64,000 nucleotides of DNA. It comes from Tenacibaculum sp. Bg11-29. GTDB lineage: Bacteria > Bacteroidota > Bacteroidia > Flavobacteriales > Flavobacteriaceae. A program made the translations under genes and the position numbers. This document shows positions 1 to 7,728 of this stretch, piece after piece. The stretch lies in the NCBI RefSeq assembly GCF_002836595.1, contig NZ_PJBB01000003.1:2727001-2791000 (forward strand). The letters are read 5' to 3'. Within the stretch, counting starts at the first letter, position 1. The number at the start of each line of letters is the position of its first letter. Under the pieces are notes generated by a model. It saw nothing but the letters and a program-made list of their open reading frames with translations, had not been told where the DNA came from and ran no database searches.

Positions 1-1410
1 GGAGATAATGCGTATTACACCCCTACGAATGACTTTGTGCAAATGCCTAAGCTGAATGACTTTGATACTAAGGAAGATTACTATAGAACGTTGTTTCATG
101 AGTTTATTCATAGTACAGGCCATAAAAAAAGATTAGATCGTTTTGTACCTGGTGTAAGTTTTGGAAATGCAGCTTATGCAAAAGAAGAATTAGTGGCAGA
201 ATTTGGGGCTATTTTTTTAAGTGCAGAAGCGGGTATTATGTGGCGTAATAATTCTAATCATGCAGAATATATAAAGAATTGGAAAAGTGCTTTAAAACAC
301 CTAAAAGAGGATAATAAATTACTCTTTAGAGCAAGTTCACAAGCGCAAAAAGCAACGGACTTTATTTTGCAACGCGATGAAAATGGCGTTCCAAAGTATT
401 TACATGGATTATTAAAAACAGTCAAAAAGAAAGTTACAAGACAAAAAGAAGTTGTGGGAATGAACGCACCCGAAATAATTCTTGATTTACCACCAATTAA
501 AGAAATGATTCTTAGGTTACCACCAAAGCAAGAATTACTTGTTGCAACAAGTAGCAGCAAAATTGCAACAAAACTGCAACAAGAAGAATTTAAAGAAGCA
601 ACTGTACAAGCCCCTGTAAATACAGTGCTTTCTGAAGTTGTTGCAGAAAACAAAACACCTTTGTTGCAACAAAACAACAACGTTGCAACAAAACCGCAAC
701 AAGTGTTGCATGAATCTAAAAGAGGAACAACAAAGCAACACAAAAATGTTTTGTCTACTTCAGATATTAATAATATGACTTTTGATACGTTGCCTTTTAC
801 AGGGGAGTGGGCTAATTTTATGCAAGAACCTGCAAAAACAATGAAATTAGCAATTTGGGGGAAACCTAAAAATGGTAAAACAGCAGGAGCAACAAAACTG
901 GCAAATTACTTGACTAATTTTGGAAGTATACTTTATAATTTTGCAGACCAGGGAATAAATAAAAGTACGCAAGATTTATGGAAGTTATCAGGATTACATG
1001 AAAAAGAGAATGCTTTTCTTTCTGAAGCAAGAGAAATAAAAGACCTTGAAAAATTATGTGCTAGTGGAGATTATGATTTTGTTTTTATTGATATGATAAA
1101 TACCTACATTCATAGAACAGGAATGAAACCTCATGAGTTTGAAGATCGATTTATAAAGAAATTTCCTAATATTTCATTCATTTTAATTTTTGAGGTAACC
1201 AAGTCTGGGAATTTTAAAGGAGATCAAGGATGGACGCATTTAACTGATGCATTAATTACGGTTGATAGTTTTGTGATGCATAACCAAGGACGTTATGGAG
1301 TAGGTGAGTATGTTGTATGGGAAGAAGGTTTAAGAAAAGTAAACCCTAAGAAGTACAAAGAGTATTTTGGTGAAGAAGAGGAAGAAAAAGAAATCGTTAT
1401 AGATTTATAA
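1..1410 (+). CDS. ArdC-like zincin metallopeptidase fused to a P-loop ATPase (5' end outside window)
   Basis: The frame is open from base 1, so the gene starts upstream; 469 codons are visible. The first part matches the peptidase domain of ArdC-type antirestriction proteins of plasmids and integrative elements. It has a zinc-binding HEFIH at 97-111, a following TGHKKRLDR stretch, and the AYAKEELVAEFGAIFL segment that supplies the third ligand in that family. A low-complexity linker (about 450-760) is filled with TTGCAACAA repeats. The C-terminal part is a RecA/AAA-like ATPase with a Walker A motif GKPKNGKT at 859-882 and a Walker B-like strand FVFIDMIN near 1081. It ends in an acidic tail. 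A terminator follows. ArdC family members bind single-stranded DNA and protect incoming DNA. The job of the fused ATPase is unknown; a DNA-handling role in a mobile element is inferred. Confidence 0.8.
   Translation, partial: GDNAYYTPTNDFVQMPKLNDFDTKEDYYRTLFHEFIHSTGHKKRLDRFVPGVSFGNAAYAKEELVAEFGAIFLSAEAGIMWRNNSNHAEYIKNWKSALKHLKEDNKLLFRASSQAQKATDFILQRDENGVPKYLHGLLKTVKKKVTRQKEVVGMNAPEIILDLPPIKEMILRLPPKQELLVATSSSKIATKLQQEEFKEATVQAPVNTVLSEVVAENKTPLLQQNNNVATKPQQVLHESKRGTTKQHKNVLSTSDINNMTFDTLPFTGEWANFMQEPAKTMKLAIWGKPKNGKTAGATKLANYLTNFGSILYNFADQGINKSTQDLWKLSGLHEKENAFLSEAREIKDLEKLCASGDYDFVFIDMINTYIHRTGMKPHEFEDRFIKKFPNISFILIFEVTKSGNFKGDQGWTHLTDALITVDSFVMHNQGRYGVGEYVVWEEGLRKVNPKKYKEYFGEEEEEKEIVIDL
538..711. 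repeat. Intragenic cluster of TTGTTGCAACAA palindromes
   Basis: The perfect 12-bp palindrome TTGTTGCAACAA occurs at 539-550 (extended to a 14-bp palindrome with flanking C and G) and at 661-672. The half-motif TTGCAACAA also occurs at 563-571 and 683-691, and weaker TGCAACAA or CGCAACAA copies at 575-582 and 695-702. Copies are read in two different frames: GTT GCA ACA (Val-Ala-Thr) at 541 and TTG TTG CAA CAA (Leu-Leu-Gln-Gln) at 661. The repetition is therefore at DNA level, not protein level. Confidence 0.85.
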
Positions 1411-1635: not shown

Positions 1636-1754
1636 ATTAATTTATACTATAGGTTTTTATATCCTAGAACTGAAAAAGTTCTTAGAGATAATTGTGGTTA
1701 GTAAATTTTTAATTGATAAAAAATCAATTAAATTTGTAAAAAAGTATAATGAAA

Positions 1755-1776
1755 ATATATGTACTAGTACATATAT
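1755..1776. repeat. 22-bp perfect palindrome just upstream of the first cassette boundary
   Basis: The run ATATATGTAC-TAGTACATATAT reads identically on both strands. It ends 7 bp before the G|TT boundary (1783-1785) of the first cassette. It could be part of an attI-like insertion site, the remnant of an earlier attC site, or an operator. Nothing here decides between these. Confidence 0.6.
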
Positions 1777-1816
1777 CCCATTGTTGGCAGTAATCTAAAA
1801 AAAAAACGAAAACCGA

Positions 1817-3265
1817 ATGAAAAACTTACTTGTAATTACAATTCTACTAATTACAACAAATTTATACTCTCAAAATATCTTTATTGAAAAATATGATGAT
1901 TGTCATATTGGAAAATTTTGCCTTGATTGTGGAAGTCCGAAAGCCAAATTTGCAAATGATATTGATAGTTACTTCAAAAAAGAGTTGACTGATTTTTCAA
2001 AGAAACTAAAAGGTAATATTTATGTTCAAATACTTGTAGACAGTATAGGAAATCAATGTGTAAAAAGCATACAAAGAGATGTAAATATAAGCACGGAAAA
2101 CCTAAAGATTAGAGAAACAATTAATTCAATGCCTATTTGGCTTCCGTCAATTGACAAGAATAACAATGCAACAAATGCAACTGTATTCTTAAATTTTGAA
2201 TTCAGAAAAGGAAAAGTAACTACAAAGTATCAAGATTTTTTTGATAACTCTTTTATGAAAAAAATCAAATCCGAGAAAACAGAATTAGAAATAACCAATT
2301 CCTTTAAAGGTTATAAAAATGACTTAACAGACAGTAATTTCAATATTTACAATAGTAAAAACTCAAAAATCAGACACAATTATTCCAGAGCAGTAACTAT
2401 CGATAAAGAAGGAATTTTATGGTTAGGTACCGATAACGGACTTATTAAAATACAGGATAACAAAATGGAACTTTACAATTCAAAAAATTCTGCATTGAAA
2501 GCCACAAAATATAATAAAAATTTAACATCTACTATTAGACACGCAATGGTTGACAGTTTAAATAACAAGTGGTTTAGCGCAGGCTATAACACATATCTAT
2601 TTGATAATCAAAACTGGACGGTCTTTGACTCGATAAATTCTCCCTTAGGTTGGATTAGAGGATTCCATGCTGATAATAAGAACAACGTTTGGGCTGCATC
2701 TGGAAAAGGTTTAGCAAAATATAAAAACAAAACTTGGACTGTTCTAAACAAAGAAAAAAGTAACCTACCGAGTAATCGAATTAGCGGAGTGTTTGTAGAT
2801 AGTAAAGAAAGAATATGGGTTGGTACGTATGATGGAAATGCAATGATTGAAAATGGAGAAACCACTCAATTCAATAATTCAGGAACTCCACTTGACAATA
2901 ATTCAATATTGAATGGATTTGAAGACAAAAAAGGAAACTTATGGTTTTCACTTCATAGCGAAGGAGATAAATATTCTGGTTTGGCAAAATTAACTACTGA
3001 AAATGAATGGAGTATTTTAAACATAAATAATTCAAAAATACCTTCAAATTCAATTTCTGACTTCGTGGTTGACGAAAAACGAAACATAATTTGGGTAGGT
3101 GTTTGGAAGGTTGGACTTGCCAAATATGATGGTAAAGATTGGTTTTTATATACTATTGAAAATTCAAAAATCCCAAGTGTTTATCTTTCCGATTTACAAC
3201 TTGACAAAAATGGAGATTTATGGATTGGAACATATTCGGGACTTGTGAAAGTGAATGTAGAATGA
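1817..3265 (+). CDS. Cassette 1: secreted protein, TonB C-terminal-like domain plus beta-propeller repeats
   Basis: This 482-residue protein has a signal peptide (first about 18 residues, ending LYSQ). Residues about 50-130 resemble the TonB C-terminal fold (NIYVQILVDSIG, then SMPIWLPSID). Residues about 190-480 carry at least six blades of the two-component-regulator propeller type, with the recurring pattern GxxWxGTxxGLxKY (GILWLGTDNGLIKI, ERIWVGTYDGNA, GDLWIGTYSGLVKV). Such propellers are usually sensor domains of hybrid histidine kinases; here there is no membrane segment or kinase, so the protein is probably periplasmic or secreted. It is large for cassette cargo. The ATG follows a 33-nt A-rich cassette leader. 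The gene ends 8 bp before the R'' box. Function unknown. Confidence 0.85.
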   Translation: MKNLLVITILLITTNLYSQNIFIEKYDDCHIGKFCLDCGSPKAKFANDIDSYFKKELTDFSKKLKGNIYVQILVDSIGNQCVKSIQRDVNISTENLKIRETINSMPIWLPSIDKNNNATNATVFLNFEFRKGKVTTKYQDFFDNSFMKKIKSEKTELEITNSFKGYKNDLTDSNFNIYNSKNSKIRHNYSRAVTIDKEGILWLGTDNGLIKIQDNKMELYNSKNSALKATKYNKNLTSTIRHAMVDSLNNKWFSAGYNTYLFDNQNWTVFDSINSPLGWIRGFHADNKNNVWAASGKGLAKYKNKTWTVLNKEKSNLPSNRISGVFVDSKERIWVGTYDGNAMIENGETTQFNNSGTPLDNNSILNGFEDKKGNLWFSLHSEGDKYSGLAKLTTENEWSILNINNSKIPSNSISDFVVDEKRNIIWVGVWKVGLAKYDGKDWFLYTIENSKIPSVYLSDLQLDKNGDLWIGTYSGLVKVNVE

Positions 3266-3272
3266 AAAGACT

Positions 3273-3471
3273 ACTGCTAACAATGGCTATAATTAATACG
3301 GGTTTTGGTGCTTAACCCAAAGTTTAGTCGCTTAAACCAAGTCCGCCAAATTTTTTTGATTTGGCTTTATAAAGAAAAAGATAAAACAAAATAAAAAGTT
3401 TTAGCTAAGTGCTTAATCGGAAATTAATTGTTTTTTAATCCCGTACTAACCATAGCCCGAAACGTTGGGTG
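3273..3471 (+). repeat. attC-like site 1 (long family), between cassettes 1 and 2
   Basis: The left box is ACTGCTAAC (3273-3281) and the right box GTTGGGTG (3464-3471), which fits GTTRRRY. Inner arms pair: GGCTATAATTAATACGGG (3285-3302) against CCCGTACTAACCATAGCC (3440-3457), with mismatches. A central hairpin GCCAAAT (3345-3351) / ATTTGGC (3359-3365) sits between them. The site closely resembles the one at 5024-5225, including the GGCTTTATAAAGAAAAA and AAAAAGTTTT.GCTAAGTGCT blocks. Confidence 0.75.
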
Positions 3472-3515
3472 TCATTAAAAACCGAACATAAAAGAAAAAT
3501 CGAAAAATAAATAAT

Positions 3516-3899
3516 ATGAAAAAACTTGTACTTATAACATTCTTAATCATTTCTTCATTTCAAACAATTAACTCTCAAGAAAAAAATGAGGAAGCTTTAA
3601 TTTCATCTGGAAAATGGCATATTGAATATATGGAAATGGGTGGAAAAAAAATGGATTTACCTTCAGAAATGCAAAAAATGAATTGGGTAATGTTTCATAA
3701 AGGTGGAAAACAAGAAGGAATGGAAAACGGTCAGAAATATGTTGGGAAATGGGAATTTGACAAAAAAAGGAGAATAATAAAAACAAATGATTTAGACGGA
3801 ATAGCTGAACAAAAATTAATTTCTGTTACAAAAAACAAATTAATTGTTTCAATAAAAGAGCAAGGTTCTGAAATGATAATGGCAATGAAAAAGCAATAA
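3516..3899 (+). CDS. Cassette 2: small secreted lipocalin-like protein
   Basis: This 127-residue protein has a clear signal peptide (residues 1-20, ending INSQ). The mature part opens with SSGKWHIEYMEMGGKKMDLP and contains YVGKWEFDKKRRIIKT. That pattern of a W-containing strand followed by alternating charged strands is typical of small lipocalin-like (DUF4488 or lipocalin_4-type) proteins of Bacteroidota. The assignment rests on the pattern only. Start: an ATG after a 51-nt A-rich leader that begins at the cassette boundary. The stop lies 3 bp before the R'' box of attC-like site 2, so the gene fills the cassette completely. No promoter is seen, and expression probably depends on read-through. 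The ligand is unknown. Confidence 0.8.
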   Translation: MKKLVLITFLIISSFQTINSQEKNEEALISSGKWHIEYMEMGGKKMDLPSEMQKMNWVMFHKGGKQEGMENGQKYVGKWEFDKKRRIIKTNDLDGIAEQKLISVTKNKLIVSIKEQGSEMIMAMKKQ

Positions 3900-3902
3900 C
3901 GC

Positions 3903-4037
3903 CACCCAATACCATATATAATTTATTGCTGGCTTCTTGCCTACTTGCGAAAGTCCTCACGGACTTTCTTGGGCGGTAATTATTTACTGAATTAGTTGCT
4001 TTAAACACGCAACAAACCATATATAGCAACGTTAGCT
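3903..4037 (+). repeat. attC-like site 2 (short family), between cassettes 2 and 3
   Basis: The left box is CACCCAAT (3903-3910), pairing with the start of cassette 2. The right box is GTTAGCT (4031-4037). Inner arms ACCATATATAATTTATTGC (3911-3929) and GCAACAAACCATATATAGC (4009-4027) are largely complementary. The apex has a perfect hairpin GAAAGTCC-TCAC-GGACTTTC (3949-3968). At 135 bp it is shorter than, and unrelated in its middle to, the other two sites. The R'' box ends in AAT instead of the usual AAC. Confidence 0.7.
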
Positions 4038-4053
4038 ATAATTCAAAAAAAAA

Positions 4054-5028
4054 ATGAAAAAAAAACTATTCCTAATAATAACTTTAATTGCTTTACCTAA
4101 TTTAATAATTGGACAAAAAAGCTCTGAGGAATTAAATCAATACAAACAATTCTTACCATATGTAATAAAAGATATTCAAGAAAATAAAACACAAAAAAAA
4201 TCTCCTCATATAGAAAGCAAAATAGGTAAAAAGTTTAATAAGCCCTGGGATGTAGAAAAATTAGATAAAGAGACTATTAAAAAGACTATTAATACATTAA
4301 TTGACAATCATACTTTACATGTTGAACAAGATTATAGAAAAAAATGGAATCTTGATTTTCACTCTACTTTAAATTTAAATAGTGCCATAGAAGAGACTTC
4401 CAATACTGATAACCTTCTATCAAATATAATTGTGTCAATTTCAAATATTGAATTATTAGATAGAAACAGAATACCTGTTATAGAAACAGAAGAAAGAAAA
4501 GTAAAAATAAATCAAGACACCGAGTTATCGTTTCATAGTGCTGGTATAAATATCGAATTTCCTCTCCAAAAAAAATATGATACCATAAATGGAACGATAA
4601 GTTTAACATTGGTCGAATACCAAAAAATCTCTTATAAAGAGTTTAGAGAAAATGATAAAAACAAATCTTTTAATTTAGGTGATTTTAAAGGATTAAAGCT
4701 TTTAAAAATACAGCAAGACAAGGCTTACGTTTATTTACCGAAATTAGATGAAAACATAAAAATCTCTGGAACAAGTAAAACAGGTGAAGAATACATTGGT
4801 GGAAATTTTAATATAAATATACCTAAAAGTGTTTATGACTATGCTATTGGAGATAATATTACTGAAAAATTAACAAAATCATTAATAGATAATTTGACTA
4901 TAAAAGATTTCAAAGAGGAGCCACAAATATTGATATATAAAACAAGTGGAATCATTGAAAATTTATTTATATACCTCAAATCAAGCCCTAAGAATTTGAC
5001 TTCAAAAACACTAAATATAAAACTATAG
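4054..5028 (+). CDS. Cassette 3: exported protein of unknown function
   Basis: This 324-residue protein begins with a signal peptide (MKKKLFLIITLIALPNLIIG, cleavage near GQK). I do not recognise a family. The mature part is Lys/Asn/Ile-rich. It has an N-terminal helical stretch (EELNQYKQFLPYVIKDIQ) and then beta-rich segments, for example the repeated NINIPKSVYDYAIGDNITEK-like and FHSAGINIEFPL strands. There is no lipobox and no second membrane segment, so the protein is probably periplasmic or surface-associated. The ATG comes only 22 nt after the cassette boundary. The TAG stop codon (5026-5028) lies inside the R'' box TATAGCTAAC, so coding sequence and recombination site overlap. Confidence 0.75.
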   Translation: MKKKLFLIITLIALPNLIIGQKSSEELNQYKQFLPYVIKDIQENKTQKKSPHIESKIGKKFNKPWDVEKLDKETIKKTINTLIDNHTLHVEQDYRKKWNLDFHSTLNLNSAIEETSNTDNLLSNIIVSISNIELLDRNRIPVIETEERKVKINQDTELSFHSAGINIEFPLQKKYDTINGTISLTLVEYQKISYKEFRENDKNKSFNLGDFKGLKLLKIQQDKAYVYLPKLDENIKISGTSKTGEEYIGGNFNINIPKSVYDYAIGDNITEKLTKSLIDNLTIKDFKEEPQILIYKTSGIIENLFIYLKSSPKNLTSKTLNIKL

Positions 5029-5225
5029 CTAACAAAATCTATAATTAATAAGGGGTTTTGTGCTTAAAATTAAGTTTAGTACTTTTTAATAAAGCCCGCC
5101 AAATCTTTTGATTTGGCTTTATAAAGAAAAAAATAAAATAAAATAAAAAGTTTTGGCTAAGTGCTAGATCGAAAGTTCACTACTTTTAATTCCCGTACTA
5201 ACCATACGAGCCTAAACGTTAACAC
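5024..5225 (+). repeat. attC-like site 3 (long family), between cassettes 3 and 4
   Basis: The left box TATAGCTAAC (5024-5033) is an exact inverse of the first bases of cassette 3. The right box is GTTAACAC (5218-5225). The central hairpin GCCAAATC-TTTT-GATTTGGC (5098-5117) has one more base pair than its counterpart in site 1. Left arm TCTATAATTAATAAGGGG and right arm CCCGTACTAACCATACGAG pair imperfectly. The site contains the stop codon of the cassette 3 gene. Confidence 0.75.
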
Positions 5226-5237
5226 AAATAAAGAAAA

Positions 5238-5747
5238 ATGGAAAAAGTAAATTGCCCAGCTTGTAAATCTGAACAGACTGAAAATATTGAATTTTGTAAA
5301 AATTGTGAGTTTCCTTTCAAGGGAACAGAAAAAGAAAGAGCCATTCATATTGGGAAATTTATAAATAAAAAAGGGGTCTTATTTGATTCTGGTGACTCAA
5401 TAGAAAGGAGTCAACAAATCCTATATGGAATTGCAGGAATTAATCTTCTTTTTATGATTATTGGTTTTTTTTCAATTGGTAGTGATTATATTACCATAAT
5501 TATCAATTTAACAATCACATCAATAATAGCTTTTTGTGGGTATAAGATTATGGAAAACCCTATACGCTATACAATAATACCTTTAATTTTATTATTGACT
5601 GTTTATACTTTTAACCTCATATTTGACCCAACCTTTTTTACTAGAGGAATTATGGTCAAATTAATGATTATTGGAAGTCTTATTTATAGCATATATTTAA
5701 TTAAAAGCGCTGAAAAATTTAAGGCTAAATATAATGTCGAGAAATAA
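5238..5747 (+). CDS. Cassette 4: zinc-ribbon membrane protein
   Basis: This 169-residue protein starts with a double-CxxC zinc ribbon (residues 5-23: NCPACKSEQTENIEFCKNC). About four hydrophobic transmembrane segments follow, at roughly residues 60-82, 84-103, 108-128 and 134-154. Zinc-ribbon plus membrane proteins of this kind are common and mostly uncharacterised; no catalytic motif is visible. The ATG comes 20 nt after the cassette boundary with a leader AACACAAATAAAGAAAA and no Shine-Dalgarno site. The gene ends 4 bp before the R'' box at 5752-5761. It is the last gene of the array in this window. Confidence 0.8.
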   Translation: MEKVNCPACKSEQTENIEFCKNCEFPFKGTEKERAIHIGKFINKKGVLFDSGDSIERSQQILYGIAGINLLFMIIGFFSIGSDYITIIINLTITSIIAFCGYKIMENPIRYTIIPLILLLTVYTFNLIFDPTFFTRGIMVKLMIIGSLIYSIYLIKSAEKFKAKYNVEK

Positions 5748-5751
5748 ATAC

Positions 5752-5785
5752 TTGTGTTAACAAACAATAGCTATAGTTTTTTAAA
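5752..5785 (+). repeat. Partial attC-like site at the right end of the array
   Basis: TTGTGTTAAC (5752-5761) is an exact inverse of the first ten bases of cassette 4 (5218-5227, counting the shared G). It is followed by an arm-like AAACAATAGCTATAG. No complementary right arm or GTTRRRY box was found up to 6000, so the site looks truncated or rearranged. The remaining DNA to 5986 is AT-rich and featureless to me. Confidence 0.6.
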
Positions 5786-5986
5786 CATAAAATAAAAGTA
5801 AATTTGTTTTACGATTTTTATGTGCTAGAAACTTATTATGGTCTTAAACTAGGTGAAAAGAAGTTTGTAGTTTCACTTATACTTCACTTTTAATTTTATG
5901 TATTGCTTAATTAGTTGATTAAAAGTTGTTTATTCTGTTTTATTGAATCCCTTTTGAGCAAAGTATAAAAAGTTAATATAATAGTG

Positions 5987-5994
5987 TAAATTTG
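5987..5994 (+). promoter_or_regulatory. Candidate -7 element (TAAATTTG) of the Crp-like gene
   Basis: TAAATTTG fits the Bacteroidota -7 consensus TAnnTTTG. It lies only 6 bp before the ATG at 6001, so a transcript from it would be leaderless or nearly so. No well-placed -33 TTG was found. Confidence 0.4.
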
Positions 5995-6000
5995 AGGTAT

Positions 6001-6588
6001 ATGAGTTCAGAGCTATTTAATCAAATATCAAAGATAATTTCTATTACAGAAAAGGAATTATCTGTATTAAAAGATACTTTTAAAAAAAAAACACTTAAAA
6101 TTTCTGAAATATTAAATTTAAAAGGAAGTGTTTGTAATTTTGAAGCGTATGTTCAAAAAGGAGTACTACGAAGTTTCTATACCATTGAGAACGGAACAGA
6201 ACGTATTATTCAATTTTTTGAAGAAGGGCAATGGGTGGGAGATTTAGAAAGTTTTTTATCTTCTAGTCCATCTAAATTTACGATTCAAGCTTTAGAAAAT
6301 TGTGAGTTAATTCTTTTTTCAAAAGAAACGATTAATACTTTATCTACTCAAATTTGTAATTGGGGAAAACTTAGAGAGTTTTTTTATGAAAAAATACTTA
6401 TTGAAAAAGATAAACACACCCAGGCTTTATTAACAAATACACCTGAGCAATGGTATACTGATTTGTTGAAAAATAGACCTAAATTACTGAATAGAATTCC
6501 GCAATATCACATCGCTCAGTATATTGGTGTTCAGCCAGAGAGTTTAAGCCGTATTCGAAAAAGAATTACTAAAATTAACTTTTCTTAA
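6001..6588 (+). CDS. Crp/Fnr-family transcriptional regulator
   Basis: This protein of about 195 residues has a cyclic-nucleotide-binding-type beta-barrel (KGVLRSFYTIENGTERIIQF, then GQWVGDLESFL). The C-terminal winged helix includes RIPQYHIAQYIGVQPESLSR, the recognition-helix region typical of the flavobacterial Crp/Fnr-like group. The effector is unknown: the usual cAMP-contacting Arg/Ser pair is not obvious, as in most family members of this phylum. The ATG at 6001 is preferred over an upstream in-frame TTG (5992), which overlaps the candidate -7 element. An alpha/beta hydrolase gene follows 70 bp downstream, and the regulator may control it. Confidence 0.85.
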   Translation: MSSELFNQISKIISITEKELSVLKDTFKKKTLKISEILNLKGSVCNFEAYVQKGVLRSFYTIENGTERIIQFFEEGQWVGDLESFLSSSPSKFTIQALENCELILFSKETINTLSTQICNWGKLREFFYEKILIEKDKHTQALLTNTPEQWYTDLLKNRPKLLNRIPQYHIAQYIGVQPESLSRIRKRITKINFS

Positions 6589-6658
6589 CCGAGGTCAATG
6601 AATTTCTAAGCGTATTTTTTTTTCTTTGTTTCATTAATTATTTAATCAATATAGAAAT

Positions 6659-7468
6659 ATGAATACAAAGAAGTTTTTTAGACTAATAGAACGTGTTTCG
6701 CCTAAAGTAACAGCAAAAATAGCATTTCATTTTATCTCAAATCCAAGAGTTAAGAAATTTAGGTCTTTTGAAAAATCTATTATTGAGCAATCTAAAAGGA
6801 GTAGTATAGTGTTCAAGAAGTTTGATATTGCTATGTACGAATGGGGTAAAGGAGAAAAAACAGCATTACTTGTTCATGGATGGGAAGGAAGAGCTTCTAA
6901 TTTTGGCGCGATAATTCCGGTTTTAGTTAAAAAAGGATATAGAGTTATTAGTTTTGATGCTCCAAGTCATGGAAATAGTACCAAAAGAAAAACAAATTTT
7001 TTTGATATCCCTGAATTAATAGAAGTTCTTTTAAAGAGAGAAACCTATAATCTTGTTGTAACACATTCAATAGGAAGTGTGTTGGCTTTAATGGCAATGA
7101 GTTCTTTGAAATATAAAGGAGATACATTGATACAATGCACAACTCCAGATAAATTTGTAGATTATATTCAAGAAACAATACGGTATTTCGGGTTGACAGA
7201 TAAAACAAAAAATGCTTTTATTAAGTTAATAAGAAAGACGACCAATTATGAACCTCTAGATATGGAGGCGAGTCTTTTTGTGAAAAATATTTCATTTGAC
7301 AATGCTTTTTTTATTCATGATAAAAAAGATAGGGTTGTTAAGATAGAAAACTCAAAGCAGGTTTGTAGTCAAATGAAAAATGCAATGTTTATTGAGTTAG
7401 AGAAAACCGGTCATTTTAAAATGCTTTGGTCTGATAAGCTTTTAGCTATTATAGAAGAAAAAGTTTAG
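6659..7468 (+). CDS. Alpha/beta hydrolase
   Basis: This 269-residue cytoplasmic protein has an alpha/beta-hydrolase core. LLVHGWEGRASNF (about residues 70-82) forms the oxyanion-hole strand, and VISFDAPSHGNS follows. The nucleophile elbow is THSIGS (about residue 138, with T in place of the usual first Gly). An acid region FIHDKKDRVV and a final GHF histidine complete the triad. The substrate is unknown. It follows the Crp-like regulator in the same direction and is closed by a terminator shared with hemJ. No signal peptide is visible. Confidence 0.8.
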   Translation: MNTKKFFRLIERVSPKVTAKIAFHFISNPRVKKFRSFEKSIIEQSKRSSIVFKKFDIAMYEWGKGEKTALLVHGWEGRASNFGAIIPVLVKKGYRVISFDAPSHGNSTKRKTNFFDIPELIEVLLKRETYNLVVTHSIGSVLALMAMSSLKYKGDTLIQCTTPDKFVDYIQETIRYFGLTDKTKNAFIKLIRKTTNYEPLDMEASLFVKNISFDNAFFIHDKKDRVVKIENSKQVCSQMKNAMFIELEKTGHFKMLWSDKLLAIIEEKV

Positions 7469-7728
7469 AAGATGTTTTTAGTACACTTTTTGAAAACTAA
7501 AAAGATTGGATTTTAGTGGCTTTACAAGTAAGGAAGAGAATTTCTTATTGTATTGTTTTTTTGCTAAATAAGAAGATATTGTTAAGTTTATAAGTAGGTT
7601 GAAAAATGTAATATAACAACTTCAACTATTTATTGCTTGTGGAGTTTCTGTTGGTGATGAATTAGAGTATGCCGATGAAGTTATCTTAGGTAGAAATATG
7701 TGAGTATATTTGTTTTTTATCAGCCATT
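7469..7728 (+). other. Non-coding stretch with a possible gene remnant
   Basis: Most of this stretch shows nothing. From 7617 to 7702 a short plus-strand frame without a start reads QLQLFIACGVSVGDELEYAD-EVILGRNM and stops. Its composition is protein-like, unlike the flanking AT-rich DNA, so it may be the tail of a decayed gene. I do not recognise the family. Confidence 0.3.

Follow-up and report, generated by a model that had tools for sequence, protein, structure and literature searches.

Integrons of the IntI type, both those of classes 1 to 3 and the sedentary chromosomal forms, couple an integrase and an attI site to single-gene cassettes that read in one direction. In class 1 integrons the integrase and the cassettes diverge. 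Across the group, the outer boxes of the attC sites are complementary within a cassette, the junction lies at G|TT, the sites of a genome are alike and the bottom strand is the better folder, the use of the bottom strand being stated in the pertinent portion of PMC8946536. Arrays with at least two attC sites within 4 kb and no integrase near them are set apart as clusters of attC sites lacking integrase (CALINs). Here, we describe a locus of Tenacibaculum sp. Bg11-29 that shares the integron plan and departs from it in its integrase and sites: an array of four gene cassettes in a 64,000-nucleotide stretch of the 4.54-Mb genome (C3:2727001-2791000, henceforth the window), which was very probably built by an integron-type system with a predicted integrase of 376 amino acids, XerA/IntI-like and devoid of the IntI-specific patch, encoded 0.64 Mb away. 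We read this as a second, patch-less integron lineage, whose recombination would follow the integron pattern.

A first-pass annotation of the window had proposed an integron-like cassette array in a flavobacterium, and this proposal is supported. The four units, each starting after G|TT (Table 1), end in an inverse of their own first bases, 8, 8, 9, and 9 of nine nucleotides agreeing when scored at the best position within 3 nt of the annotated unit end. As that annotation had stated, the match is with the start of the same unit and not with that of the neighbor, none of the 12 other pairings among the four units exceeding seven of nine. It had likewise described two sites of about 200 bp as closely alike, and these span about 185 bp from AAC to GTT (3279-3464 and 5031-5218). 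In the fourth attC, which is cut short, the best opposite-arm score within 250 bp is 8.0, against 19.4, 16.7, and 11.9 in the three complete sites. The remark that the array lacks a visible integrase holds for the window, whose array resembles a CALIN in having sites without an integrase, but not for the genome, which has one candidate integrase with an attI and cassettes behind it. Further, unlike a CALIN, the window array has sites that are not canonical attC and retains an attI-like site and an integrase relic, the segment C3:2728704-2728786 (window 1704-1786) matching the tail of the candidate integrase gene plus its attI at 86%.

The sites recur throughout the genome. A search with the first site, in which the best 40 of 157 candidates were scored, gave 41 matches at E<=1, a count that includes the first site; 37 reach E<=1e-3. 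Aligned, the sites display a common layout: an outer variable box and AACA are followed by the two opposing arms with a variable middle between them, then by GAAACG|TT and a new variable box. A stem scan of the genome uncovered another class of site, shorter at about 121 bp, and a covariance model built from 17 aligned sites of this class from the one genome (R1) finds 49 matches there at E<=1e-3. Both classes together amount to about 80 sites in 32 clusters (matches less than 260 bp apart being merged), an outcome of the whole-genome search suggested by the first-pass annotation that favors cassettes. The complementarity of a unit's own ends also extends beyond the window: 20 of the 37 consecutive same-strand site pairs reach eight or nine of nine, against 3.3% of 2,352 other pairings and 2/49 when the two boxes of a single site are compared (4/53 sites were dropped as unreadable). 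The start TTAGCAAAAAGAATA, or one near-identical to it, is recurrent in several cassettes and arrays (C3 0.396, 3.95-3.97, and 4.52 Mb).

Of 11 tyrosine-recombinase matches in the genome, 8 lie above the family cut-off, and a single gene, at C3:2090134-2091264, is of the 376-residue type at E<=1e-60. Its product scores 234.6 bits against the XerA/NF040815 family model (cut-off 220), a family name that does not imply function. XerA is a chromosome-dimer resolvase, and we know of no XerA/NF040815 recombinase that moves cassettes. The stop codon of the candidate integrase gene is immediately followed by ATAATGGAAATATATGTACCAGTACATATATCCCGTTG|TTGTAAAAC, and the unit that comes next closes with GTTTTACAACAATG; the motif at the stop codon is the one that recurs before the window array. 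The attI of integrons has its counterpart in a palindrome, a GTT and a variable box behind the integrase stop codon, at which cassettes would insert, and the one-directional array with R boxes complementary within a cassette is likewise present. Unlike the attI of IntI-type integrons, the site holds a palindrome; unlike in class 1 integrons, the integrase gene points the same way as the cassettes. The attI itself has multiplied in the genome: the motif has six forward copies with at most one mismatch, and further attI-like copies lie at C3 ~2.113, 2.701 (diverged), 2.702, 3.439, 4.515, and 4.518 Mb, those at ~2.701 and 2.702 Mb being about 0.85 kb apart with an integrase-tail relic at each.

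A canonical IntI-family chromosomal integron or CALIN that had merely gone unannotated would show the same order of parts, the same G|TT rule and the same bottom-strand preference, and canonical IntI is common elsewhere in the phylum (above the cut-off in 105/395 genomes, of which one belongs to the same class and none to the family). This alternative is, however, largely refuted and we regard it as very unlikely. In a sample of 199 Flavobacteriaceae genomes, nearly one per genus, canonical IntI was found in none at E<=1e-50 (the 14 control genomes of this search gave no match, the phylum search serving as its positive control). The candidate integrase reaches 198.6 bits with the IntI model TIGR02249, below the cut-off of 265, in a match split into two stretches. 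The spacing from G-x-R to H-x-x-R-H is 88-89 residues in 42/42 integrases of its type, against 130 in 11/11 readable IntI proteins (of 12), 90 and 92 in XerA, and 92 in XerC (XerD having been misread). The integrase also differs from IntI by an N-terminal extension of about 85 residues. The sites depart too: their R boxes are about 12 nt and seldom RRRY, with G.T wobbles at fixed arm positions; GTTRRRY is fitted by 1/17 model sites and 15/150 sites of other species (16/167), and RYYYAAC by 1/17 and 10/150, respectively. Hence, the earlier label of a chromosomal integron is not supported in its strict sense, because of the missing IntI-specific insertion in the integrase and the rarity of GTTRRRY among the sites; a search for a tyrosine recombinase bearing the IntI patch, which had been suggested with that label, does yield an IntI/XerA-like candidate, but one without the patch. 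The system most likely works like an integron, but by the tests made here it falls outside the IntI family.

The same architecture is seen in related loci, taken as the best 80 of 569 stretches encoding a relative of the integrase (from Tenacibaculum, Aquimarina, Maribacter, Winogradskyella and others), of which 78 enter the counts of intact loci, 2/80 having broken frames. After the integrase stop, in most loci within tens of bases, comes a palindrome with GTT: a scored palindrome is present in 60/78 loci, and GTT within 12 nt of the palindrome in 51/78, followed by about six variable columns before A and T reappear at +10 and +11. At this fixed junction the first cassette's own ends match in at least 9 of 10 positions in 36/56 loci (own genome included), against 20% of 655 swapped pairings. 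When an attC-like start behind the inverse is also asked for, 50/58 loci (57 related loci and the own genome; the other 21/79 had less than 900 bp downstream) compare with 47/771 swapped pairings, though the true contrast is smaller, since the own test chose among several GTTs and the swap used one. At E<=0.01 the R1 model finds 191 matches in the 80 loci, at least one in 51/80, and all 191 lie on the integrase strand. By hand reading from the table of matches, 189 are downstream (363,273 bases) and 2 upstream (L127 at 1592 and L137 at 6116, loci being numbered with L), although the upstream DNA is twice as long (743,510 bases). A second set of 20 further loci, 17 of them with integrases 35-50% identical, has R1 matches in 20/20, with 102/106 on the integrase strand and the other four being antisense shadows of stronger sense matches; the attI here is mostly different, ending in CATATAACCAGTTG or alike. 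Contig ends fall within 10 kb of the integrase downstream in 58/78 loci and upstream in 11/78, as expected before repeats.

These loci bear on whether real cassettes might be moved by some other recombinase, for which the tyrosine recombinases of 400-490 residues that adjoin several arrays (C3 0.39, 2.70, 3.23, 3.97, and 4.50 Mb) would be the candidates. We consider this very improbable, because in dozens of species and two diverged groups it is the 376-residue type, the one covered by our comparison of relatives, that stands directly before attI and cassettes of its own direction. The larger recombinases may belong to integrative elements for which the arrays serve as landing sites.

In their folding, the sites favor the strand that integrons use. 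Over 16 arm positions without a bulge, the 17 model sites have 228 Watson-Crick pairs, 40 top-strand A.C, 1 G.T, and 3 other among 272, and 149 distinct sites of other species (from the best 150 of 191, in an alignment fitted to the model) have 1984, 323, 11, and 23, respectively, among 2341. As a top-strand A.C is a G.T on the bottom strand, the latter pairs better. The mismatches keep to fixed positions: one pair is A.C in 147/147 sites and another in 124/147. Other pairs change on both sides, and at the cassette-end boxes position 10 is A.C in 38/50. Computed DNA energies make the bottom strand more stable in 17/17 model sites and 127/149 of the other-species sites, with two ties, and in two example sites the computed fold forms the full stem on the bottom strand.

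Two readings that dispense with cassettes fare still worse. If the units were non-autonomous, MITE-like transposons, their inverted ends would be terminal repeats moved by a transposase; every unit does have such ends, and the sites are numerous and dispersed, but the terminal boxes vary between units while remaining complementary within each, the conserved DNA is confined to one unit end, and the sites share their orientation behind a tyrosine recombinase, leaving this reading with hardly any likelihood. Least probable of all is an ordinary conserved gene cluster in which the palindromes between the genes serve to terminate transcription or as RNA elements: the sites sit just past stop codons and fold, modestly in the window, but folding and wobble pairs favor the non-coding strand, congeners show the sites and not the gene content (among the best seven candidate places per genome), and an Rfam scan at the attC-like sites of the window gave no match at gathering scores.

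Applied to the best 15 or fewer candidates per genome in the family sample, R1 finds sites in 172/199 genomes, and the integrase (E<=1e-60) is present in 112/199. At least one site occurs in 109/112 genomes with the integrase against 63/87 without, and at least 10 sites in 80/112 against 23/87 (Fisher p 4e-10, a value that is indicative because the genomes are related). Among 247 genomes across the class (best 12 or fewer candidates per genome), 33 match R1 at E<=1e-4, four of them Flavobacteriaceae. On plasmids of Chryseobacterium, Persicobacter and Rufibacter, R1 matches lie downstream of the integrase gene and on its strand. We consider it likely that the Flavobacteriaceae exchange genes by way of a second type of integron that has been overlooked.

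In the mechanism that we propose, the integrase would act on the folded bottom strand of an attC, recombining it between G and TT with either the double-stranded attI or a second attC. Circular cassettes would thereby be inserted at attI in one set orientation and could leave again. The N-terminal domain (residues 7-78) might make up for the missing IntI patch and perhaps read the hairpin, a suggestion we advance with less assurance. The window array, having kept an attI and a 36-bp integrase relic, would now be served in trans.

Several observations weigh against an integron-type system of this kind. The catalytic-box spacing and the rarity of GTTRRRY, which separate it from IntI, are among them, as is a gap at the IntI-specific insertion when the integrase is aligned with IntI4; as the title of a 2001 study by Messier and Roy has it, that additional domain is reportedly necessary for IntI activity. 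In our tree the 42 integrases group with IntI at 99/98.6 against XerA, XerC and XerD, on long branches, but the alternative that joins them to XerA is not rejected (p-AU 0.073), so that their placement among Xer and IntI is tentative. Of the consecutive site pairs in the genome, 17/37 fall below eight of nine, for which missed sites, insertion sequence (IS) insertions or decay may account. As for folding, which had been proposed as a check on the array, the three complete window sites do beat their shuffles, but modestly (z -1.2, -2.7, and -1.8), and 20/149 sites of other species fold better on the top strand. Sites are also carried by 63/87 genomes without an integrase at E<=1e-60; the integrase is therefore not always near, or was missed. 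Finally, recombination, cassette circles and mobility are predicted from sequence.

More speculatively, we suggest a wider scenario that may well prove wrong: a Flavobacteriaceae-wide second integron lineage without the IntI patch, whose integrase would recognize the G.T-marked hairpin of the bottom strand by means of an N-terminal domain similar in shape to the XPB damage-recognition and HARP DNA-fork domains; hairpin recombination would then predate the patch or have been re-invented, and genes such as tet(X3) would have become cassettes on this platform first and moved to clinical plasmids afterwards. Such a lineage would have been missed by design in surveys, because, as far as their method statements go, these select the IntI patch or canonical profiles: an earlier one admitted a gene only if it had the additional domain or patch (PMC2426708), and another selects canonical IntI and attC profiles (PMC9024848). 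For Bacteroidetes, the pertinent portion of the IntegronFinder 2.0 account gives only In0 elements for an earlier study by the same authors and adds a single complete integron, that of Salinibacter ruber. A search of the open-licence PMC literature, with bioRxiv and most subscription journals outside it, found no description of a patch-less flavobacterial integron. If a second, patch-less lineage does exist, attC-like sites would be present in 171/198 and the integrase in 111/198 sampled genera of the family, tet(X3) would be tied to an attI-like site, unexplained gene uptake without homology would gain a candidate mechanism, and the need for the IntI patch in hairpin recombination would become directly testable.

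Signs of mobility are indirect. Comparison with relatives, which had also been suggested for the window, favors cassettes: 32/40 congeneric genomes (own included) match window 1700-7500 among the best seven candidate places per genome, and the matches listed are almost only attC sites, the exceptions being G818, with 154 bp of cassette 2 and the start of its attC, and G802, with part of the right flank (both congeneric genomes). As seven places per genome and listed matches were compared, this does not prove the absence of the cassette genes. Between species, like units have different neighbors: one shared by L074 and L090 starts at AAACG|TT (90%, 489 bp), and one shared by L096 and L137 ends inside an attC (97%, 408 bp). 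An insertion element, presumably of the IS110 type from its transposase, starts immediately after the AAC of an attC-like site (..AACA|AAGAACTGAGG) in 5/5 copies from six stretches, as if it seeks attC; known integrons have attC-seeking IS elements.

Plasmids of Acinetobacter carry, about 190 bp ahead of tet(X3), a truncated relative of the integrase (58% over residues 164-376; named tpnF in the annotation of FJ012881.1), and an attI-like palindrome with G|TT immediately precedes tet(X3) (L204 4590-4841 and L200; plasmids NZ_CP041297.1 and FJ012881.1). With these neighbors, tet(X3) looks like the first cassette of a flavobacterial-type integron, although by eye its cassette ends fit only 8/12. 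We know of no earlier reading of the xerD gene found with tet(X3) as an integron integrase with an attI. The xerD-tet(X3) context itself is already on record (in a portion of PMC8635130). In Riemerella anatipestifer, of the same bacterial order, a gene is described as entering by natural transformation without homology, with fixed flanks of 27 bp and 140 bp, the latter folding like attC (PMC13148043). This resembles the present system in gene entry with fixed flanks and an attC-like fold and differs in that the account, in its pertinent portion, names no recombinase and no attI; the flavobacterial system would explain such entry and is a candidate mechanism for it.

Table 1. Parts of the cassette array (positions in the window) and copies of the insertion element (positions in related loci)
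Feature	Position	Strand	Details
Integrase relic	1704..1739	+	36 bp, about the last 12 codons of the integrase 3' end; without intact gene
attI-like site	1755..1783	+	Palindrome ATATATGTACTAGTACATATAT (1755-1776), then CCCATTG; junction G1783|T1784
Cassette 1	1784..3464	+	Gene 1817-3265, 482 aa, two-component regulator propeller repeats PF07494; own ends 8/9 inverse
attC-like site 1	3270..3476	+	Long class, ~185 bp AAC to GTT
Cassette 2	3465..4031	+	Gene 3516-3899, 127 aa, without Pfam match; own ends 8/9 inverse
attC-like site 2	3899..4044	+	121-bp class; model R1 130 bits, E 1.3e-22 (among the 17 R1 sequences)
Cassette 3	4032..5218	+	Gene 4054-5028, 324 aa, weak LolA-like match below cut-off; own ends 9/9 inverse
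attC-like site 3	5022..5231	+	Long class; 81% identity with site 1
Cassette 4	5219..5785	+	Gene 5238-5747, 169 aa, without Pfam match; truncated attC from 5750; own ends 9/9 inverse
Insertion-element copies	L043 6137 (- strand); L045 4898, 9203; L048 19814; L050 5429		

The genes of cassettes 2, 3, and 4 gave no match above the cut-off in a Pfam search. Just left of the array, at window 37-1410, lies a gene with a zincin-like metallopeptidase domain, MPTase-PolyVal (PF18818); such domains are usual in mobile elements. Elsewhere in the window, the minus strand at 41542-41576 matches the Rfam DUF805b RNA with 40.9 bits.

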